This document shows, in pieces, positions 18,585 to 59,619 of a stretch of DNA of 64,000 nucleotides. Each line of letters opens with the position of its first letter. The stretch's first letter is position 1. The notes beneath the pieces are model-generated. The model ran no database searches. It saw only the letters and a program-made list of their open reading frames with translations, and was not told the DNA's origin. The stretch spans positions 1,984,001-2,048,000 of the forward strand of contig NZ_CP137080.1 of NCBI RefSeq assembly GCF_036324365.1. The letters run 5' to 3'. This DNA comes from Microbacterium limosum (GTDB taxonomy: Bacteria > Actinomycetota > Actinomycetes > Actinomycetales > Microbacteriaceae). A program made the position numbers and the translations under genes.

Positions 18585-20132
18585 TCAGTACCCCGCGAAG
18601 GCGTCCGTCGTGAGGGAGCGGGCCTTCTCGAGCGCGGGCGCGAGATCGGCGATGAGCGCGGGCGGCCCGGAGATGTACGCATGCCGGTCGTCGAGGTCGG
18701 GAACGACGTCGTGCAGCCCCGCGGCATCCAGGCGCACTCCTTGCGCCCACCGCCAGCGGGCCGGCAGCGGCGACGGGTCGTCGCGCGTGAAGACGACGAC
18801 CTCGGCGCCGGTCGCGGCGAGCTCGTCGCGGAAGGCCAGTTCGGCCGCCGTCGCCGCGACGTAGACGAGCACGACGTCGCGGTCCTCGCCGCGGGCCGCG
18901 GACTCCCGCAGCTGGGAGACGAACGGGGTGACGCCGATGCCCGCCGCCACGAGCAGCAGGGGCGCTCCCGGGTCGCGCGGAAGCACGAAGTCGCCCCAGA
19001 CGCCGGTCGCGGCGTAGTCGGTGCCGGGAGCGGCGACCGCGAGCGCCCGCTTGTACGAGCTCTCGGCCGCCCCCTCCTTCACGCGATAGGCGATGCGCAT
19101 GAGCGGGGCGTCGCTCGGGGCGGAGACGATGCTGAACTCGCGGCGCGTGCCGCGCGCGTCGGGCCGGGAGTGGGGCACCTCGAGTTCGACGTACTGACCC
19201 GCGGCGAAGCGCACGGGCCGGCGGGATTCGAAGGTGAGCTGGCGAACGGTCGGGGTGAGCATCGACGCGTCCCGCAGGCGCAGCCGCACTGTGTGGTGCG
19301 CCGCCCAGACGAAGGCGAGGAGGTTGCCGATCAGCAGCGCGCGCTCCTGGCCGAGCGTGAACCAGCCGACCGAGATCGGCCACCCCGCGAGCACGCCGAC
19401 GACGGCGGCGACGGTCAGCTGCTGCCAGCGACGCGGCGGGAGGGTGAGGGGCTCCGAGAGCATGAAGGCGCCGAGGAAGAGGAAGGGCGAGGACAGCACC
19501 GCGAAGCTCAGCGCCTGCCCCGCGTCGATCGACACGCCCGCCGCCTGCGCCTGCACCGCCAGCCGGAACACGGAGACCCCGACCGCGACCACGAAGAACA
19601 CCGTGACGATGCGCAGGCGCTCGGTGCGAAGCAGCACCGCGAGGCCGAGCAGGAGCACCGGACCTGCCAGCACCGGCGAGCCGACCCACCAGGCGGAGGC
19701 GCCGAGGCCCGACACGGTCAGAGCGGTCGCCCCCACCGCCGCCGGGTTCAGGATGTGGCGTCCGCGCCACGCGATCGCGTACTTCGATACGACGGCCACG
19801 GCACCAGCGAGCGCGATCCATGCCAGCTCGACCGGCACGAGCGTCGGGCGGAGCACGAAGAGCAGGATGAAGGCGGTGATGAGGGAGGACTCGTACCGTC
19901 GCGGCATCCGGAGCACCCGCTGCACGAGGGCATTCACGCCCACGCAAGCGGCGCCCAGCACGGCGGCGGTCACGATCAGCTCGAGCGGCGAGGGCACCAC
20001 CAGGCCGAGCAACGACAGCGCCAGGGCGATCACCGTGAGCGCCGCGAGCGCGAGCATCACGAGGCGGTACATCGAGAACCGCCCCAGGATGCCGAGGAGC
20101 CGGGCACGGAGGGAGGCGAGAGTCGCGATCAC
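18585..20132 (-). CDS. Membrane flavin oxidoreductase: RnfD/NqrB-like domain fused to a ferredoxin-NAD(P)+ reductase module
   Basis: A 515-residue fusion. Residues about 20-280 form roughly ten helices resembling the NqrB/RnfD membrane subunits, with HILNPAAVGAT at 127-136 and the LSEPLTLPP loop at 226-233. Residues about 282-515 are an FNR-type module: FAD-binding RREFSIVSAPSD (330-341) and the NAD(P) motif AAGIGVTPFVS (396-405). No 2Fe-2S cysteines are present. Predicted role: pass electrons from cytoplasmic NAD(P)H across the membrane to a flavinylated extracytoplasmic protein. GTG 20132 overlaps the ApbE stop by 4 bases. It is the third gene of the operon. The canonical SGAT flavinylation motif of RnfD/NqrB is not clear here. 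Confidence 0.85.
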   Translation of the reverse strand: MIATLASLRARLLGILGRFSMYRLVMLALAALTVIALALSLLGLVVPSPLELIVTAAVLGAACVGVNALVQRVLRMPRRYESSLITAFILLFVLRPTLVPVELAWIALAGAVAVVSKYAIAWRGRHILNPAAVGATALTVSGLGASAWWVGSPVLAGPVLLLGLAVLLRTERLRIVTVFFVVAVGVSVFRLAVQAQAAGVSIDAGQALSFAVLSSPFLFLGAFMLSEPLTLPPRRWQQLTVAAVVGVLAGWPISVGWFTLGQERALLIGNLLAFVWAAHHTVRLRLRDASMLTPTVRQLTFESRRPVRFAAGQYVELEVPHSRPDARGTRREFSIVSAPSDAPLMRIAYRVKEGAAESSYKRALAVAAPGTDYAATGVWGDFVLPRDPGAPLLLVAAGIGVTPFVSQLRESAARGEDRDVVLVYVAATAAELAFRDELAATGAEVVVFTRDDPSPLPARWRWAQGVRLDAAGLHDVVPDLDDRHAYISGPPALIADLAPALEKARSLTTDAFAGY

Positions 20133-21022
20133 GAGTCCACGTTATCCGCGCTCGTGAACAGCGTCGCCGCGCAACCCGGCGAATACTCCACCCGCCCGCT
20201 CGAGAGCATCCGCACCCAGGCCACGCCCCACCGGTGGGCGAGCTGCGGACCGCCCTCGAAGAAGAGCGCCGTCGCGACGGCGTCGGCGCGCATCGCGTCG
20301 CCGCCGACGGCCCACGTCGCCACGACGGTGCGCACCGGGACGCCCGTGCGGGCGTCGAGCACGTGGTGCAGCCCGTCCCCCCACGAGCGCCGGTTGGTCG
20401 CCGAGGCGCAGAGCGCGGCATCCCGCACCTCCCACACGCCGATGGCGCGGGACGGGTCGTAGGGGTGCTCGAGCCCCACCCGCAGCGGAGCGCCCCGCGC
20501 GAGGAGGTCTCCCCCGGCATCCACGACGGCGTGCTCCGCCACGTCGGCGGGCAGGGCTGCCGCCACGAGGTCGACGAGGCGGCCCTTGCCGAGCGCCCCC
20601 ACGTCGATGACGGCGGGACCGCCCAGGACGAGGCGGCCGTCGCCGACCGAGAGCGTCTCCCGCCAGTCGTCCGGGGCGGGAAGCGGCGCACCGGCGCGGA
20701 ACGAGTAGGCGCGGTCGTAGCCGAGCCGCTCGAGCGCGGCGCCCACGAGGGGGTTGACCGCCTCCGCGGTCGCGGCGGACAGCTCGGCGTAGGCGGCGAG
20801 CATGTCGGCCGCGTCGGGGGGCGCCGGGAGGGATCCCCCCGCCCGGCCCAGCTGCGACACGACGGAATCGGGGCGGAAGCGCGACCACTGCGCGTCGAAC
20901 TCGTCGACGACCGACCTCACCCGCGCCCTCTCCGGGCCTGTGAACGGCCGCGGTGCCTGGATCTCCCAGCGCGTGCCGATCGCCTCGAACCCCCAGCGGT
21001 GTGTCGCGCGGGAGCCGGGCAC
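20129..21022 (-). CDS. apbE: FAD:protein FMN transferase, ApbE family
   Basis: Transfers FMN from FAD to Thr or Ser of target proteins outside the cytoplasm. The 297-residue product shows GFEAIGTRWEIQ at the N-terminus, DVGALGKGRLVD, VDAGGDLLARG, the HHVLDARTG motif and the metal-binding MRADAVATALF. I see no obvious signal peptide, so its export or topology is uncertain. The GTG at 21022 comes 2 bases after the stop of the FMN-binding lipoprotein gene and its own stop overlaps the reductase start. The natural substrates are the lipoprotein upstream and possibly the RnfD-like domain. Confidence 0.93.
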   Translation of the reverse strand: MPGSRATHRWGFEAIGTRWEIQAPRPFTGPERARVRSVVDEFDAQWSRFRPDSVVSQLGRAGGSLPAPPDAADMLAAYAELSAATAEAVNPLVGAALERLGYDRAYSFRAGAPLPAPDDWRETLSVGDGRLVLGGPAVIDVGALGKGRLVDLVAAALPADVAEHAVVDAGGDLLARGAPLRVGLEHPYDPSRAIGVWEVRDAALCASATNRRSWGDGLHHVLDARTGVPVRTVVATWAVGGDAMRADAVATALFFEGGPQLAHRWGVAWVRMLSSGRVEYSPGCAATLFTSADNVDS

Positions 21023-31750: not shown

Positions 31751-32686
31751 TCAGGCGGGCAGCAGCCGCGCGCCCGGCACGGGCCCGTGGGCGTGGAACG
31801 CGTCGCGCCCGAGCGCGGCGAGCGCGACGCGCACGTCGAGGGCCGCCTCCGGGGCCTCGCACAGGAACGCCACGGTGGGTCCGGACCCCGACACGATCCC
31901 GGCGAGCGCACCCGCCGACTCCCCCAGCTCGAGCACCTCTGCCAGCTCGGGCCGCAGGTTCAGCGCCGCGGCCTGCAGGTCGTTGCGCAGGCACGCCGCC
32001 AGCCGTACGGGGTCACCGGCGCGCAGGGCGTGCAGGACGTCGGGGTCGACGAACGGCTGCGTCGGCGCGGGGGCGATGTCGGTGCGCCGGCGCTCGCGGT
32101 GCGCGTCGAGCTCGGTGTAGACGTCGGGAGTGGACAGGCCCTCGGCATCCGTCGCGAAGACCCACTCGAAGCGGCCCCGCGCGAGGGCGGCGCTGAGCTC
32201 GTCCCCGCGTCCCGTGCCCACGGCCGTCCCGCCGTGGAGGGAGAACGGCACGTCCGCGCCCAGGCGGGCGGCCAGCTGGTGCAGCTGCGCGTTCGTCAGC
32301 TCGGTCCCCCACAGCGCGTCGCACGCGACGAGCGCCGCCGCGGCATCCGCCGACCCGCCCCCCATGCCGCCCGCGACAGGCACGCCCTTGCGCACATGCA
32401 GGTGCACGCCGCCGGCCTGTCCCGTCTTGCGGGCGAGCAGGCGCGCGGCGCGCAGGGCCAGGTTCCGGTCGTCGAGCGGAACACCGCTCGTGTCGACCGA
32501 CCCGGTCACCTCGATGGTGAAGTCGTCGGATGCCGTGGCCCACACGTCCTCGTACAGCGAGACCGCCTGGAATGCCGTCGCCAGCTCGTGATAGCCGTCG
32601 GGCATCGCGGCGCCCACCTCGAGGAAGAGGTTGACCTTGCCCGGGGCGCGCACGTGCACGCGGTCGGCGTCGGAGGCGGGGATCAC
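31751..32686 (-). CDS. ispE: 4-diphosphocytidyl-2-C-methyl-D-erythritol kinase
   Basis: GHMP kinase of the non-mevalonate isoprenoid pathway. The 311-residue product has [14 protein letters not shown] at the start, the ATP loop [17 protein letters not shown] and the late GSGPTVAFL motif. GTG 32686 overlaps the aldo/keto reductase stop by 4 bases. In many actinobacteria ispE follows rsmA directly; here an aldo/keto reductase gene is inserted between them. Confidence 0.94.
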
Positions 32687-33750
32687 TTCTCGGACGACTC
32701 CGCCCAGAGGTTGACGTCGATCCCGTCGGACAGCGCGTCGATCCGCTCGATCTCCTCGGTGTCGAACGCGGGTCCGGCGAGCGCACCGAGGTTCTCATCG
32801 AGCTGCGAGGGGCGGGATGCCCCGATCAGCGCCGACGCGACGACGTCGTCGCGCAGCACCCACTGCAGCGCCATCTGCGCGAGGCTCTGCCCGCGCTCCT
32901 TCGCGATGACATCGAGCGCCCGCAGCGTCGAGCGCCCCTGCTCCGACAGCGGTCGCTCGGGCAGCGACGCGCGCTTCTGCGCACGCTCGGCGGGGCCGTC
33001 GCCGAGGTACTTGTCGGTGAGCAGTCCCTGCGCGAGCGGAGTGAACGCGATCGCGCCCATGCCCTCCTGGCGCAGCACGCCGGTCAGCCCGTCCTCGATC
33101 CAGCGGTTCAGGATCGAGTAGGAGGGCTGGTGGATGACGAGGGGAGTCCCGAGCGAGCGGGCCACCGCCGCGGCGGCCGCCGTGCGCTCGGCGCTGTACG
33201 ACGAGATGCCCACGTAGAGCGCCTTGCCCTGCCGCACGAGGGTGTCGAGCGCCCCGACGGTCTCCTCGATCGGCGTGTCGGCGTCGACGCGATGCGAATA
33301 GAAGATGTCGACGTAATCCAGGCCCATTCGGGTCAGCGACGCCTCGGCGCTCGCGAGGAGGTACTTGCGCGAGCCGTGGTCGCCGTAGGGGCCGTGCCAC
33401 ATGTCGTAGCCGGCCTTCGAGGAGATGATGAGCTCGTCGCGGTAGGGGTCGAGATCCTCCCGCATCATGCGGCCGAAGTTCGTCTCGGCGGAGCCGTAGG
33501 GCGGGCCGTAGTTGTTCGCCAGGTCGAAGTGCGTGATGCCCGAGTCGAAGGCGTGGCGCAGCAGCGCGCGCTGGTCGTCGAACGGGATGTTGTCGCCGAA
33601 GTTCCACCACAACCCCAGCGAGATGGGGGGAAGCCTCAGCCCGCTCGTGCCGACCCGCCGGTAGTCGGCCAGGTCGTATCGGTCGGGGGCGGCGGTGTAC
33701 GGGCGGTGCAGGTCGCCCCCGCGCGAATAGAAGGAAGGCGTCTCGGTCAC
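32683..33750 (-). CDS. Aldo/keto reductase (YghZ / L-glyceraldehyde 3-phosphate reductase type)
   Basis: NADPH-dependent carbonyl reductase of 355 residues. The catalytic tetrad is visible: Asp in HFDLANNYG, Tyr in the same NNYG element, Lys in [11 protein letters not shown] and His in [12 protein letters not shown]. The NADP-binding C-terminus includes [22 protein letters not shown] 33750 is nine bases after the rsmA TAG and has a leaderless-type promoter built on that stop codon. It is coupled to ispE by a 4-base overlap. The physiological substrate is unknown. Confidence 0.9.
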
Positions 33751-33756
33751 CGCTCC

Positions 33757-33762
33757 AGGCTA
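33757..33762 (-). promoter_or_regulatory. -10 element of the aldo/keto reductase gene, formed by the rsmA stop codon
   Basis: TAGCCT on the minus strand: its TAG is the rsmA stop codon, then a 6-base spacer and GTG 33750. The spacer also contains GGAG, so translation coupling is an alternative explanation. Confidence 0.5.
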
Positions 33763-43369: not shown

Positions 43370-44215
<846 letters not shown>

Positions 44216-44218
<3 letters not shown>

Positions 44219-45547
44219 GGAACGCGGGAGCGGCAGCGGGTCGTGCAGCCCATAGACGTGCAGCGCTCCCGACCCGCCGGCGAAGAACGTGTCGAGCGTC
44301 GCGCGGGGCGGCACGGCGATGACCGAGACGACATCGCCCGGCAGCCGGTCGAGCACGGCGACCGTCGAGCTCGGCGACTTCGCGTCGGCGCCCGACGCCG
44401 CGCGGCTCACGCGCGCGAGCTGCGTGTGGGCGCGATAGCGCGGGTTCGCCGGCGCGACGTAGTTGCCCCACGCGCACAGCACTCCCGCGACGGATCCGGC
44501 GCCCACGGGCCGCACGTCGTCCGCGAGGGCGTGCTGGCCGTCGACGTTGAAGACGTAGCCGCCGGATGCCGCGGCGATCGCGTCGGCGCGCAGCGACGCC
44601 CCGCACGAGGGGACGAGCTGCAGTTCGAGGCCCTCGCCCGCGTCGCGGGGCCAGCGGTTGCGGGGCAGGCCGCGCCGCAACCGCCCGTCGGCGTGGTCGA
44701 GGCAGATCTCCACCCCCACGTCCACGGGGCATTCCGAGCCGGGATCCAGCCGCACGATCGCGTGCGCATCGCCGGCGCGGCGCTTGAGGTCTCCGCCGGA
44801 GAGGTCGACGAAGGCGTGCGCGACCATCTGCTCCGTCACGACGTCGTCGCGGCCCGTCGTGTCCCAGAGCACGAAGTCCTCGCCGGAGTCGAGGGACTTC
44901 TCGGTCGTGACGAGGCGCTCGGGGAAGGCGCCGGTGGGCGTTCCCAGCGCCGCGCCGCCCAGCACGAGCGCGCGGTTGCGCACCTGCACGACGGGGTGCG
45001 CATGACCCCACTGCAGGTAGTCCTCGACGATCTCGAAGATCTTCGCCTGGTCCTCCCCCGAGGCCTGCCGGTAGCGCCGCGCGAGATCGGCGACGACGCC
45101 GTTGCGCACGAGGGTCGTGGCGCGGGCGAAGATCTCCCGCGGGTCGTCGGCCTCGGCCGAGACCGCCGTGCCGAAGACGAACAGCCAATCGGCGTACTCG
45201 TCGGCGGGGAACTCCTCGGCGAGCCGCTCGATGAGCCCGTCGACGGGGTCGGGCTCCCCCGCGGCGTAGAGATAGGGCCCCTGCGGTCCGTGCCAGAAGA
45301 ACTCGGGCGCCACGAAGACGTTGAGCACCCCCGACTCCTCGGCCGGCAGGGCATCGCGCGCGGCGCGCACGGCGGCCCGCAGGACGCCGAGCCTGCCGGC
45401 GATGTCGGCCGCGGCATCCGGCAGACCCAGGTAGGTGCCGCCGACCGAGCCGCCCCCCGACGGGGAGCCCAGCGGGGCGACCTGGGCGGGGCCGGTCGGG
45501 ATCGCGAAGCCGATGAAGCGGACGCGCTGCCAGCCCGGGTGCACCAT
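44216..45547 (-). CDS. Nitrilase-superfamily-like carbon-nitrogen hydrolase, divergent
   Basis: A 443-residue protein, much longer than the usual 260-330 for single-domain members. A plausible Glu-Lys-Cys triad is present: Glu82 in VFVAPEFFWHG, Lys217 in VTTEKSLDS and Cys282 in VGVEICLDH. The extra length is an insertion between Glu and Lys (about residues 90-190) and extended loops. No signal peptide is visible. The substrate is unknown and catalytic competence is inferred from motifs only. ATG 45547 follows TAGGCT by 7 bases. It is divergent from hrpA. Confidence 0.7.
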
Positions 45548-48500: not shown

Positions 48501-49527
48501 CGCGGGGCGGGACCTCGCAGAGCTGCAGGCCCGCCTGGCGGGCCGGGCCCGCGAGAGCGTCGCGGCGCGCATCACCGGCGCCGGAGCCGCCCCCGCCGCG
48601 CGCGTCGCCGGAGCCCCGGGGCCGGGTGCGGAGACATCGGGAGCCGTCGTCGCCCTTCGCGAACGCACGGGGATCACGTCGTGGGACCTCGGCGACCTGC
48701 CCGAGGTGATCGACACGAGGGTCGCCGGCGGCGTCGTGCGGGGATACCCGACGCTCGTCGACGAGGGGGCCTCGGTCGCGCTGCGGGTCGAGAGCACGCC
48801 CGAGGCCGCCGAGCGCGAGCTGCGACGCGGCATCCGTCGTCTCATGCTGCTGGCCGTTCCCTCCCCCGTGTCCTACGTGCAGGAGCACCTCACCGCCAAC
48901 GAGAAGCTCGCCCTCGCAGCCTCCCCCTACCCCTCGGTCAAGGCGCTCATCGAGGACTGCCGCGCCGCCGTCGCCGACGAGGTGATCGAGGGGGCCGCGC
49001 ACGGGGGCCCGGTGCGGGATGCCGCCGCCTTCGCCGCAGTGCAGGGCGCCTTCTCCGCCGCCGTCGTCGAGCGGCTGTTCCAGACCGTCTCGCTCACGGC
49101 CCGCATCCTCACGCTGCTGCGCGACGCCGAGCGCGAGGTGCGCTCGGCGAACTCCCTCACGCTACTGCCGGCCCTGAACGACGTGCGCGGACAGCTCGCG
49201 GGGCTCGTCTTCCCGGGATTCGTGCTGCGCACCGGCACGGCACGGCTCGGCCACCTGCCGCGATACCTCGACGGGGCGCTCACGCGCCTGCGCGGCCTCG
49301 CCGACAACGCCGGCCGCGACCGGCAGCGCCAGAGCGAGATGGAGCGCGCCCTCGCCGCGTACGCCGAGGCGGGCGGCACGTTGCCCCCGGCGCCGGATGC
49401 CGCGGCATCCCTCGTGCGCACGCGCTGGCTGCTCGAGGAGCTGCGCGTGAGCCTGTTCGCGCAGCAGCTGGGAACCTCCGAGCCCGTCTCGCTCCCGCGC
49501 ATCGCGAAAGCGCTGCGCGGCGGATAG
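45592..49527 (+). CDS. hrpA: ATP-dependent RNA helicase HrpA (DEAH box)
   Basis: A 1311-residue DEAH-box helicase, the expected length for the long bacterial HrpA. The helicase core has Walker A GATGSGKTTQLP (about residues 38-49), DEAH in IIVDEAHERSLN, SAT in VVITSATIDPQSF, and motif VI SAQQRSGRAGRTSDG. The HA2 and OB-like parts follow, and the C-terminal DUF3418 region spans the last 550 residues. HrpA resolves stalled or collided ribosomes in E. coli. The TAG stop lies inside the -10 element of the next gene. Confidence 0.96.
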   Translation: MSAPALQISYPPELPVSGAREEIAAAIRDNQVVIVAGATGSGKTTQLPKICLELGRESIAHTQPRRIAARTIAERVAEELHVELGTTVGYKVRFTDKVGADTRVALMTDGILLNEIHRDRLLRRYDTIIVDEAHERSLNVDFLLGYLRRILPDRPDLKVVITSATIDPQSFAEHFADAAGRPAPIIEVSGRTYPVEIRHRPLLADDEVPAYDVDGDEIAGVVAALQELDREPRGDVLVFLPGEAEIRDAADAVRAAYSGAASPTEVLPLFGRLSAAEQHRVFERSTVAGVRRRVVLATNVAETSLTVPGIKYVVDTGTARISRYSNRAKVQRLPIEPVSQASAQQRSGRAGRTSDGIAIRLYGEEDFAGRPEFTEPEILRTSLASVILQMLALGFGDIQAFPFLTPPDSRGVRAALDLLVELGAVTVRAGAEPRLTKTGREIARMPIDPRFARMLIEAQRQGTTDAMLAIVAGLSIQDVRERPEAEREQADRLHARFTDPTSDFLSLLNLWNHLRTRASELGSSAFRRLCRAEHLNYVRVREWFDVHRQLRTLVRHPGGRGGSERAPREETTTADPDAIHRAILSGLLSHIGVLDARALAKASNERRDRRPAPAEYLGARGIRFAVFPGSGLKKKRPQAVMAAELVETSRLFARTVAAIDPAWAEPLAGDLAGRQVSEPHWSKDAGAAVAFEKVTLFGVEIIPRRRIQYARIDRDGARELFVRHALVEGEWDPSVLDKRLSAFVRANHELRRRLEKLEERERRRDILVGDEAVFAFYDARVPRDVFDVRSFERWWREQQSRTPHLLTMRQSDLAPEEARADARDFPTRWVQGDQTLTLAYRFEPGADDDGVNVVVPLPLLQGLRPDGFDWQVPGMRAELIAAMLRALPKAIRRNVVPAADWAARFGDELAGAGPESHEGLPPSAMVDALARLVQRAAGQPVTAADFEVERVPAHLRMAFRVVDGRGRTVGAGRDLAELQARLAGRARESVAARITGAGAAPAARVAGAPGPGAETSGAVVALRERTGITSWDLGDLPEVIDTRVAGGVVRGYPTLVDEGASVALRVESTPEAAERELRRGIRRLMLLAVPSPVSYVQEHLTANEKLALAASPYPSVKALIEDCRAAVADEVIEGAAHGGPVRDAAAFAAVQGAFSAAVVERLFQTVSLTARILTLLRDAEREVRSANSLTLLPALNDVRGQLAGLVFPGFVLRTGTARLGHLPRYLDGALTRLRGLADNAGRDRQRQSEMERALAAYAEAGGTLPPAPDAAASLVRTRWLLEELRVSLFAQQLGTSEPVSLPRIAKALRGG

Positions 49528-49530
49528 CGT
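49525..49530 (+). promoter_or_regulatory. -10 element of the quinone oxidoreductase gene, formed by the hrpA stop codon
   Basis: TAGCGT: TAG (49525-49527) ends hrpA, then the 6-base spacer GAAGGC and ATG 49537. Confidence 0.6.
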
Positions 49531-49536
49531 GAAGGC

Positions 49537-50478
49537 ATGGCACACGCGATCACGTACTCCTCCCACGGCGGCCCCGAGGTCCTCCAGCTGACCGAGGTGC
49601 CGGCGCCCCAGCCCGGGCCCCGGCAGCTCGTCGTGCGCGTCGAGGCGGCGGGGGTCAACCCGATCGATGCGAAGCTGCGCTCGGGACGCCGGGCCTCCTC
49701 CCCCCTCAGCGCGCCGCGCCGCATCGGGCGCGACGGCGCGGGGGTCGTCACCGCCGTCGGCGCCGAGGTCTCCGGGTTCGCCGTCGGCGAGGCCGTGGTG
49801 TTCCACGACACGAGCGGGTCGTACGCGAGCGAGGTCGTCGTGGAGGCGGCCCACGCCGTGCCGCGCCCGCCGCGCGTCTCGGCCGCCGAGGGCGCCGGCA
49901 TCGGCATCCCGGTCGGCACCGCCTATCAGTGCCTGCGCTCGCTCGCGGTGCGCGCCGGCGACACGCTGCTCGTGCACGCCGGGTCCGGCGCGGTCGGGCA
50001 GGCCGCCATCCAGTACGCCGCGCTGTGGGGCGCCCGTGTCGTGGCGACCGCGAGCGAGCGCCGCTTCGATCGGGTGCGGGGGCTCGGCGCCACGCCGGTC
50101 GCCTACGGCCCCGGCCTCATCGAGCGCGTGCGCGAGGCGGCGCCGGAGGGCGTCACCGTGGCACTGGATGCCGCGGGCACCGACGAGGCGATCGAGGCCT
50201 CGCTCGAGCTCGTCGCCGACCACGCCCGCATCGCCACGATCGTTCGCGGCGCGGACGCCGCGGGCTTCGGCATCCGTGCGTTCTCGGGCGGCTCGCCCGA
50301 ACCGCTCACCGACGTCGAGCTGGGCTGGCGTGCCGAGGCCCTGCCGGTGACGGTCGCCCTGCTGGCGGCGGGGGCGTTCTCGATCGAGGTGGGCCCCTCG
50401 CTTCCGCTGTCCGACGCCGCAGAGGCCCACCGTCTCCTCGAGCGGGGCGTCGACGGCAAGATCGTCCTGGTGCCCTGA
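49537..50478 (+). CDS. NADPH:quinone oxidoreductase-type medium-chain dehydrogenase
   Basis: A zinc-free medium-chain reductase of 313 residues. The N-terminal GroES-like domain contains EAAGVNPIDAKLRSG and RIGRDGAGVV; the Rossmann domain contains VHAGSGAVGQAAIQYAALWGARVVATAS. The zinc-ligand Cys/His pairs of alcohol dehydrogenases are lacking. It likely reduces quinones or activated alkenes. ATG 49537 is nine bases after the hrpA stop. The next gene starts 82 bases downstream with its own promoter-like element. Confidence 0.9.
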   Translation: MAHAITYSSHGGPEVLQLTEVPAPQPGPRQLVVRVEAAGVNPIDAKLRSGRRASSPLSAPRRIGRDGAGVVTAVGAEVSGFAVGEAVVFHDTSGSYASEVVVEAAHAVPRPPRVSAAEGAGIGIPVGTAYQCLRSLAVRAGDTLLVHAGSGAVGQAAIQYAALWGARVVATASERRFDRVRGLGATPVAYGPGLIERVREAAPEGVTVALDAAGTDEAIEASLELVADHARIATIVRGADAAGFGIRAFSGGSPEPLTDVELGWRAEALPVTVALLAAGAFSIEVGPSLPLSDAAEAHRLLERGVDGKIVLVP

Positions 50479-58083: not shown

Positions 58084-58089
58084 GTGCGC

Positions 58090-58626
58090 ATGTCCGACCT
58101 GTTCCGCGAGCTGCCGCTGAGCTCGCGCACGCCCCGCGACGAATCGGGGGTGACGGGCGACTGGCGTGGCCAGCTCGCCGATGTCGTGGGCGAAGCCGCC
58201 CGCCTGCTCGCACGGGTCGACGACGACTCCCGCAGCCCGCGCACCCGCGCATTCCTCGTCGAATCGGGGCTCGACCGGGAGCGCTCCGAGGACGATCTCA
58301 CCGGACTCGCCGACGCCGTGCGCTCCGGTCGCCGCCGGCGCATCCGCGATCTCTCCCGCGCGGTGACCGCGACGCTCGTCCTCGCCCGCGACACGGGCGG
58401 CGCCGTCTCCCTCGCCCCCCTGACGTTCGGCGCGGTCGCCCTCTACCGCACGACAGCGGCCCCCCTTCCCATCCGGGCCGTCGTCGCGGGACGCACCCTG
58501 CGCTCGAGCGACCATGGCTGGGAGTTCGGGCACGGCCCCCTGCTGGAGGACAGCTCCGAGCGGATCGTCGCGTTTCTGTGCGGGGTGAGCGAGAACGCTC
58601 CCGGCGGAGGCTCTCGGCCGCGTTAG
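58090..58626 (+). CDS. Hypothetical protein, 178 residues
   Basis: I do not recognise this family. The product is soluble and rich in Arg, Asp, Ala and Leu. Residues about 20-100 look helical (GQLADVVGEAARLLARVDD, and a basic stretch SGRRRRIRDLSRAV); the second half contains short beta-like segments (APLTFGAVALYR, IRAVVAGRTLRSSDHGWEFGHG). No signal peptide, membrane helix or cysteine cluster is present. ATG 58090 is supported by its promoter; GTG 58084 would lie within the spacer. Its TAG stop is the first half of the next gene's -10, so the pair is tightly arranged. Confidence 0.7.
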   Translation: MSDLFRELPLSSRTPRDESGVTGDWRGQLADVVGEAARLLARVDDDSRSPRTRAFLVESGLDRERSEDDLTGLADAVRSGRRRRIRDLSRAVTATLVLARDTGGAVSLAPLTFGAVALYRTTAAPLPIRAVVAGRTLRSSDHGWEFGHGPLLEDSSERIVAFLCGVSENAPGGGSRPR

Positions 58627-58629
58627 GCT
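58624..58629 (+). promoter_or_regulatory. -10 element of the Gfo/Idh/MocA gene, formed by the upstream stop codon
   Basis: TAGGCT: TAG (58624-58626) ends the 178-residue protein gene, then the 6-base spacer CGGCAG and ATG 58636. Confidence 0.6.
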
Positions 58630-58635
58630 CGGCAG

Positions 58636-59619
58636 ATGACCGGACTGCGCTGGGGCATCCTCGCCACGGGCGGAATCGCCCACGCCTTCACCCACGATCT
58701 CCGCACGGCGGGCCTCGACCCCGTCGCCGTGGGATCGCGCACCGCCGCATCGGCGCAGGCGTTCGCCGACGAGTTCTCGATCCCGCGGGCCCACGGCGGC
58801 TACGACGCTCTGCTCGCCGACCCCGACGTCGACATCGTCTACATCGCGACGCCCCACCCCATGCACGCCGAGAACGCCCTGGCGGCGATCCGTGCGGGGA
58901 AGCACGTTCTGGTGGAGAAGCCGTTCGCCCTGAACGCGGCCGAGGCGGCGGCGATCCGCGACGCCGCGGCCGCTCGGGGCGTGCTCGCCATGGAGGCCAT
59001 GTGGACGCGCTATCTGCCGCACATGGAACGCGTCCGGGAGCTCGTCGGCAGCGGCGCCCTGGGCGAGATCCGTGCCCTGACGGCGGACCACACACAGAAG
59101 ATCTCGGCGGACCCCGCGCACCGCCTCAACGCGCTCGATCTCGGCGGCGGCGCGCTCCTCGACCTCGGCGTCTACCCCGTCTCGTTCGCCTGGGACATCC
59201 TCGGCGCTCCCGAGAGCGTCGTGGCCTCGGCCCGGCTCGGCGAGACCGGGGCCGACACCGAGGTCGCGACGATCTTCACCCACTCCGGCGGCGGGATCTC
59301 GACGAGCGTCACGTCGTCGCGCGCGGCGGGCCCCAACACGGCCGCCGTCGTCGGCACCGAGGCGCGGATCGAGATCGACCGCATCTGGTACACCCCCACC
59401 TCCTTCCGCGTGATCGCCCCCGACGGCACGGTGCGCGAGACCTACGTCTCCGACGTCGCCGGGCGCGGCATGCAGTACCAGGCGATCGCGGCCGAGCGCC
59501 TCGTCGCCGAGGGCAACCTCGCCGGCGACGTGCTGCCGATCGACGAGACGGTGGCGATCATGGGCACACTCGATGACATCCGCCGACGCATCGGCCTCGT
59601 TTACCCCCAGGAGCACTGA
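58636..59619 (+). CDS. Gfo/Idh/MocA-family oxidoreductase
   Basis: A 327-residue NAD(P)-dependent sugar or inositol dehydrogenase-like protein. Its Rossmann start is RWGILATGGIAHAFTHDL, with IVYIATPHPMHAENALAAI, the catalytic-region motif VLVEKPFALN and the C-terminal beta-sheet domain with LDLGGGALLDLGVYPVSFA. It most resembles the trans-1,2-dihydrobenzene-1,2-diol/xylose dehydrogenase branch, but the substrate cannot be fixed. Its TGA is followed after one base by the NYN-domain gene. Confidence 0.9.
   Translation: MTGLRWGILATGGIAHAFTHDLRTAGLDPVAVGSRTAASAQAFADEFSIPRAHGGYDALLADPDVDIVYIATPHPMHAENALAAIRAGKHVLVEKPFALNAAEAAAIRDAAAARGVLAMEAMWTRYLPHMERVRELVGSGALGEIRALTADHTQKISADPAHRLNALDLGGGALLDLGVYPVSFAWDILGAPESVVASARLGETGADTEVATIFTHSGGGISTSVTSSRAAGPNTAAVVGTEARIEIDRIWYTPTSFRVIAPDGTVRETYVSDVAGRGMQYQAIAAERLVAEGNLAGDVLPIDETVAIMGTLDDIRRRIGLVYPQEH

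Follow-up and report, generated by a model that had tools for sequence, protein, structure and literature searches.

Four gene junctions and their flanking genes

The window analysed here, 64,000 nucleotides of the single-contig, 2.79 Mb genome of Microbacterium limosum (NZ_CP137080.1, positions 1,984,001 to 2,048,000), contains four junctions of same-strand genes at which the stop codon of the upstream gene coincides with the first half of a putative -10 promoter element of the downstream gene. At each of them, the in-frame TAG stop of the upstream open reading frame (ORF) is extended by nnT to the hexamer TAGnnT, and six further bases lead to an ATG or GTG start codon (Table 1). The original prediction, which had been made from the letters of the window, had named these four junctions, and all four are found in the sequence as described.

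Clear family matches were obtained for six of the eight flanking proteins, namely the products of rsmA and hrpA, the two aldo/keto reductases, the quinone oxidoreductase, and the Gfo/Idh/MocA protein. The remaining two ORFs match no Pfam or NCBIfam family. The longer one had previously been labelled "nitrilase-like"; the shorter one, previously given as 178 residues, comprises 180 residues when counted from its GTG codon. Among 58 further genomes of the genus, 1 encodes a protein 44% identical to the product of the 443-residue ORF. No orthologue of its junction with the Dkg-like reductase gene was found among these 58 genomes, and the gene of the single homologue ends in TGA and lacks the arrangement. 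Homologues of the 180-residue ORF occur in 8 of the 58 genomes.

Table 1. Components of the four junctions, given in coordinates of the window.
Feature	Position	Strand	Family match or basis
TAGCGT-gaaggc-ATG, hrpA to quinone oxidoreductase gene	49525-49539	+	sequence
TAGCGT, hrpA stop (49525-49527) and candidate -10 of the quinone oxidoreductase gene	49525..49530	+	
ATG start of the quinone oxidoreductase gene (49537-50478), putative transcription start	49537..49539	+	ADH_N, ADH_zinc_N
hrpA, upstream gene, 1311 aa	45592..49527	+	TIGR01967
TAGCCT-ggagcg-GTG, rsmA to aldo/keto reductase gene	33762-33748	-	sequence
TAGCCT, rsmA stop (33760-33762) and candidate -10 of the aldo/keto reductase gene	33757..33762	-	
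GTG start of the aldo/keto reductase gene (32683-33750), putative transcription start	33748..33750	-	NF007388
rsmA/ksgA, upstream gene, 283 aa	33760..34611	-	TIGR00755
TAGGCT-ggggac-ATG, 443-aa ORF to Dkg-like reductase gene	44218-44204	-	sequence
TAGGCT, stop of 443-aa ORF (44216-44218) and candidate -10 of the Dkg-like reductase gene	44213..44218	-	
ATG start of the Dkg-like aldo/keto reductase gene (43370-44206), putative transcription start	44204..44206	-	family match
443-aa upstream ORF	44216..45547	-	none
TAGGCT-cggcag-ATG, 180-aa ORF to Gfo/Idh/MocA gene	58624-58638	+	sequence
TAGGCT, stop of 180-aa ORF (58624-58626) and candidate -10 of the Gfo/Idh/MocA gene	58624..58629	+	
ATG start of the Gfo/Idh/MocA gene (58636-59619), putative transcription start	58636..58638	+	family match
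180-aa upstream ORF from GTG 58084	58084..58626	+	none

Occurrence and nature of the hexamers

In the window, the pattern TAGNNT-N6-RTG occurs 12 times; 1.28 occurrences are expected from shuffled sequences, and none of 100 shuffles reached 12. An upstream stop provides the TAG in only 4 of the 12 sites, which are those of Table 1. The element is therefore general, and the overlap with a stop codon is a subset of its occurrences. Genome-wide, TAGNNT-N6-ATG was found 112 times, compared to 46 occurrences of a reversed control pattern.

An independent sample, from which the window was excluded, was compiled from 60 stretches of 20 kb located elsewhere in this genome and 60 stretches from 15 complete genomes of the same genus, to which all junction comparisons are confined. 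It comprises 1062 genes with 682 same-strand pairs from M. limosum, and 1016 genes with 625 such pairs from the congeners. Genes were called by means of a small home-made phase-specific Markov gene finder, which penalises overlaps and allows none longer than 90 nt. The first 2.4 kb of the window received no gene call from it, and the starts it assigns are late; every in-frame ATG and GTG codon between 150 nt before and 30 nt after a called start was therefore considered. All counts refer to such possible starts, and one gene may contribute several of them. The position of a hexamer is given as its offset from the upstream stop, offset 0 denoting a stop that lies exactly on the hexamer.

The sample contained 179 same-strand sites of the form TAnnnT-N6/7-start. 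Eighteen of them are at offset 0 (10 of 91 in this genome and 8 of 88 in the congeners), where about 1.7 are expected at a single position from the density between +11 and +50 (Poisson probability about 3e-13). The other hexamers begin inside the upstream gene (10, at offsets -5, -13 and -14 only), at +1 to +10 (5), at +11 to +50 (67) or farther downstream (79). At least two orthologous pairs are among the 18 (L200/L217 for comEC-holA and L239/L252 for xseA-xseB), which leaves at most 16 distinct junctions. A smaller first pass over 40 stretches, which had yielded 5 sites at offset 0 and 7 within the gene upstream, is superseded by these 120 stretches.

An excess of TAG at the promoter gap had been named beforehand as a test of the idea, and it is present: TAG accounts for 19 of 37 stops at gaps of 9-10 nt and for 35 of 370 at other gaps between 1 and 30 nt (Fisher test, 3e-9). 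The T that completes the hexamer follows 17 of 19 TAG stops at gaps 9-10 and 16 of 108 other TAG stops (p = 3e-10). The gap is not fixed at 9 bases, as had been proposed; it is 9 (N6) in 11 and 10 (N7) in 7 of the 18 sites, one of which uses TAA as stop. Pfam matches (E <=0.001) were obtained for 16 of the 18 upstream proteins (8 of 8 in the congeners and 8 of 10 in this genome, where one match scores under the cut-off set by Pfam itself) and for all 10 downstream proteins of this genome. Most of the genes involved therefore look real. The stop-on-hexamer arrangement is thus confirmed as a pattern that lies far above chance and recurs outside the window.

The same hexamers were found where no upstream stop exists. 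In this genome, TAGNNT in front of possible starts peaks at a spacing of 6 (48 same-strand and 38 divergent cases) and of 7 (21 and 22); at any other spacing between 2 and 12 there are at most 7 cases per context. Related to gene numbers, the spacing of 6 was observed for 38 of 302 divergent and 48 of 682 same-strand genes of M. limosum, and for 37 of 322 and 37 of 625 genes, respectively, of the congeners. The hexamers are therefore at least as common in front of divergent genes, and because these lack an upstream stop, a stop cannot explain the peak there. Of 213 divergent sites, 120 carry G as the third hexamer base.

No on-stop site out of 22, the four of the window included, matches the -35 sequence TTGACA in at least four of six positions; in view of this lack of a clear signal, a dependence on a -35 element was rejected. 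At the divergent sites, matches of this quality occur in 22 of 213 cases versus 18 of 213 at a control spacing. At least five positions match in 8 versus 2 cases, so that a few divergent sites may possess a -35 element. Taken together, the position, the TAnnnT shape, the absence of a clear -35 signal and the use at divergent genes match what is known of actinobacteria, and the hexamers look like ordinary -10 elements of leaderless promoters. By analogy, transcription would start at the first nucleotide of the downstream start codon and yield leaderless transcripts. The terms "operon-internal promoter" and "leaderless mRNA", which the original prediction used for the four junctions, are therefore adopted here as inference.

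The pattern TANNNT-N6-ATG was also counted in 118 genomes of the class, and it exceeds its reversed control clearly in some of them and not in others; for example, 295 versus 35 occurrences were found in one genome (G145) and 350 versus 338 in another (G077).

Two further registers of overlap were noticed. At offset -5, the upstream stop begins with the final T of the hexamer, giving TAnnnTGA in L005 (17249-17256), L021 and L248; in L211 the upstream stop in this register is TAG. At offsets -13 and -14, an out-of-frame putative -10 hexamer is embedded in the final codons of the preceding gene, whose end overlaps the next start as ATGA or GTGA. Sites of this kind were found in the window (20130-20144, minus strand) and in L004, L008 (two sites), L028, L012 and L235. 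In L022 (15407-16936), an IS481-type integrase gene ends in a TAG that is part of the putative -10 element (TAGGCT-N6-ATG) of the next gene, which encodes a hexapeptide-repeat protein; here the insertion may have supplied the promoter.

Promoter and stop in orthologous junctions

Five junctions that show the overlap in one species were compared with their orthologues; this choice biases their offset-0 shares. A locus was counted if both genes were found on one strand within 200 nt of each other, and the window's own loci were included. The counted loci are 18 of 44 examined for rsmA and the aldo/keto reductase gene (rsmA-AKR; the AKR proteins of L079 and L119 are identical), 26 of 30 for comEC-holA, 30 of 30 for xseA-xseB, 18 of 30 for hrpA and the quinone oxidoreductase gene (hrpA-qor), and 3 of 9 for the 180-residue ORF and the Gfo/Idh/MocA gene.

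For rsmA-AKR, comEC-holA and xseA-xseB taken together, the promoter is present in all 74 loci; in 36 of them the stop coincides with it, and in the other 38 it does not. All 18 rsmA-AKR loci contain the TAnnnT promoter. The rsmA stop lies on it in nine (four TAG, five TAA). In three other loci, rsmA crosses the promoter in another frame and terminates within the start codon that follows (GTGA or ATGA); the remaining six have a TGA upstream of the promoter. Likewise, no comEC-holA or xseA-xseB locus lacks the promoter (26 of 26 and 30 of 30, respectively), and the stop coincides with it in 12 and 15 of these loci. The comEC-holA hexamer starts with TAG in all 26 loci, irrespective of whether the stop is there. 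On quick gene trees with several unresolved forks, the arrangement changed its state at least five times for rsmA-AKR and at least six times each for comEC-holA and xseA-xseB, in counts that cannot separate gain from loss. Furthermore, the promoter is kept in all three loci of the 180-residue ORF and the Gfo/Idh/MocA gene; the two orthologues (L104 and L106) read TACGCT-N6-ATGA, the stop having shifted into the start codon.

As a small control, a junction was selected whose stop is off the hexamer in this genome (offset -5). All 21 of its loci possess the promoter; in 15 of these the gene upstream could not be recognised, and in none of the 6 loci with a recognisable upstream stop does the stop lie on the promoter. 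As the promoter is kept in orthologues while the stop moves, the comparison suggests that it is usually the stop that varies, against a constant promoter.

Among 18 of 80 aldo/keto reductase loci that were inspected, the TAnnnT-N6/7 promoter was observed in all 14 from Microbacterium (L112-L123, L125, L128) and in none of the 4 from other taxa (L124, L127, L130, L186). The top 12 entries among the matches listed for the aldo/keto reductase of M. limosum are all Microbacterium sequences.

The hrpA-qor junction is an exception. A promoter at N6 or N7 was found in only 3 of 18 loci, and the stop-on-hexamer arrangement of the window is shared by 1 of the 17 other loci (L049). In 9 of the 15 relatives without a promoter at N6/N7, hrpA nevertheless ends in TAG. 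Some of these promoter-less loci show, by eye, a Shine-Dalgarno-like stretch in front of qor. Two, L052 and L057, have a TAGGGT at distances of 8 and 9 nt from the ATG; L054 has a stop that opens a TAGGCT hexamer, but the start follows only after 27 nt. The gap is 9 nt in G008 versus 23-69 nt in most relatives. A pre-existing TAG stop has probably become half of a new -10 element in M. limosum and in G008. Both routes, promoter first and stop first, may therefore occur.

A probable leaderless promoter packed against the neighbouring gene

We consider it likely, with a probability of roughly 0.8, that the overlap represents an ordinary leaderless promoter packed against the neighbouring gene, and that no new mechanism is involved. 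The promoter would be of the usual actinobacterial type, with a TAnnnT -10 element whose last base lies 6 or 7 nt in front of the start codon, a distance at which transcription should begin on the start codon. With a third base that is mostly G in this genus, the element would often begin with TAG. An upstream same-strand gene entering in the frame of the first three bases would be terminated by this TAG (or TAA); a gene entering in one of the other two frames would run on into the next gene, unless a stop follows within a few bases. The expected outcome would be a visible peak of stops on hexamers, amounting to some 10% of the same-strand leaderless promoter sites.

This expectation was formulated as a frame model, in which the upstream gene enters in a random frame and overlaps longer than 4 nt are lost. 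The model was computed on promoters without an incoming gene, using TAG and TAA hexamers only. In the two other frames, the upstream ORF continues with a median overlap of more than 100 nt unless it meets a stop within 4 nt of the next start. The predicted share of stops on the hexamer is 64% for the divergent set and 58% for a distant same-strand set. The observed share is 18 of 27, which agrees with both values (p = 0.84 and p = 0.44, respectively), and no overlap longer than 4 nt was seen. Because the model fits, selection for a dual-purpose codon is not required: the reading frame and the avoidance of long overlaps suffice. With n = 27, a moderate effect of such selection is possible.

Four points weigh against this explanation. 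Firstly, the fit needs the additional assumption that long overlaps are lost; a naive lottery giving each frame one third is rejected by the same 18 of 27 sites (p = 7e-4). Secondly, the gene finder disfavours overlaps, so that the absence of long ones is partly built in. Thirdly, the model offers no explanation for the scarcity of promoters at +1 to +10 after the stop, of which there are 5 among 179 sites, whereas the density at +11 to +50 would give about 17. Fourthly, the order of events at hrpA-qor seems to be reversed, with the stop preceding the promoter. The five sites at +1 to +10 are located at +7 (four) and +8 (one).

The original prediction had proposed a special class of bifunctional elements with fixed geometry, in which the stop codon is systematically recruited and then kept by selection as half of the -10 element. 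The strong peak at offset 0 and the enrichment of TAG at gaps 9-10 are in line with it, as is the TAG stop of hrpA that seems older than the promoter. In addition, the on-hexamer stop of rsmA-AKR and xseA-xseB is TAG in some species and TAA in others; TGA, the most frequent stop, never occurs there, a restriction that the definition of the hexamer also demands. Against recruitment, the frame model accounts for the share of on-hexamer stops, and the hexamers also precede divergent genes. The distribution of spacings (11 N6, 7 N7) is close to the mix of all same-strand TAGNNT sites of this genome (48 and 21). Moreover, the stop is mobile in orthologues, with repeated changes of state in each junction tree, and the comEC-holA hexamer retains its TAG with or without a stop. 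The special class is therefore not upheld, and we regard a specific recruitment of the stop as improbable.

Still less credible is a purely translational signal, in which TAG-nnT-N6-start would be a termination-reinitiation or ribosome-binding arrangement and no promoter would exist. All pairs are on the same strand and close to each other, where coupling is common, and by far the commonest close spacing in this genome is the 4-nt overlap with TGA (192 possible starts). However, the identical hexamer and spacing in front of divergent genes, which have no upstream stop, lead us to reject a coupling signal, and the hexamer persists in orthologues whose stop lies elsewhere. That four sites were merely picked by chance from one window, where they are indeed concentrated (offset 0 in 4 of 8 same-strand sites versus 18 of 179 elsewhere), is refuted by the shuffles and by the same peak in the independent sample.

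One further reading is conceivable, though we hold it to be rather doubtful: in high-GC actinobacteria whose leaderless promoters are of the TAG type, the promoter might act as a built-in stop. It would catch ORFs whose own stop has been lost, define the C-terminus of the protein encoded upstream and thereafter hold TAG or TAA in place by dual constraint. Promoter placement would then shape protein ends and stop codon usage.

The overlap links stop codon choice to promoter placement. TGA makes up about 85% of the same-strand upstream stops of this genome (578 of 682), and 10 of the 104 TAG and TAA stops in the sample have a promoter at offset 0; part of the minority usage of TAG and TAA is explained by the promoter of the next gene. 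For annotation, TAG-nnT-N6/7-start suggests itself as a mark of a likely leaderless start directly after a gene. Existing maps of transcription start sites can distinguish between recruitment of the stop and a frame lottery.

Leaderless TAnnnT promoters are already known, and so is the overlap of a stop codon with a Shine-Dalgarno sequence. For M. tuberculosis, mapping of transcription start sites has revealed TANNNT -10 elements, no conserved -35 and many leaderless mRNAs (PMC3898074), and ANNNT/TANNNT -10 elements are described for M. smegmatis (PMC6448022). According to a survey, high-GC groups such as actinobacteria have a TAnnnT signal some 12 bp before their starts (PMC3160421), and about 33% of the mRNAs of C. 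glutamicum are leaderless (PMC3890552). As far as the available portions of these sources extend, the hexamer, its distance to the start and the lack of a -35 (as in PMC3898074) as well as the use of both ATG and GTG (as in PMC3890552) are the same in Microbacterium; the difference is that part of the Microbacterium class shares its first three bases with an upstream stop. A leaderless system of a different phylum, likewise judged from a part of its description, has in common the -10 element directly before the ORF that gives a leaderless mRNA. No description of the stop/-10 overlap as a class was found in the titles and abstract beginnings of the open-access literature searched, which is weak evidence of absence. 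In the available portions of the texts, "stop codon" does not occur in PMC3160421 and PMC3898074, and occurs four times each in PMC3890552 and PMC6448022 in passages that do not concern a stop/-10 overlap; the corresponding portion for the other phylum contains neither "stop codon" nor "termination codon", and those of PMC5348764 and PMC6728331 hold nothing on such an overlap.

The closest counterpart is the overlap of a stop codon with the Shine-Dalgarno sequence of the next gene, for which an adapted stop usage at gaps of 5-8 bp has been reported (PMC2784483). According to the part of this work available to us, a deletion onto a pre-existing TGA or TAG is argued there to be the more parsimonious route, and the stop-first route at hrpA-qor resembles the routes it discusses. 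In both systems, a downstream expression signal limits the choice of the upstream stop at certain gaps in a compact genome. In contrast, the signal in PMC2784483 is a ribosome-binding site on the same mRNA, whereas in Microbacterium it would be a DNA promoter element, the gaps are 9-10 nt, and the stops are TAG or TAA instead of TGA.

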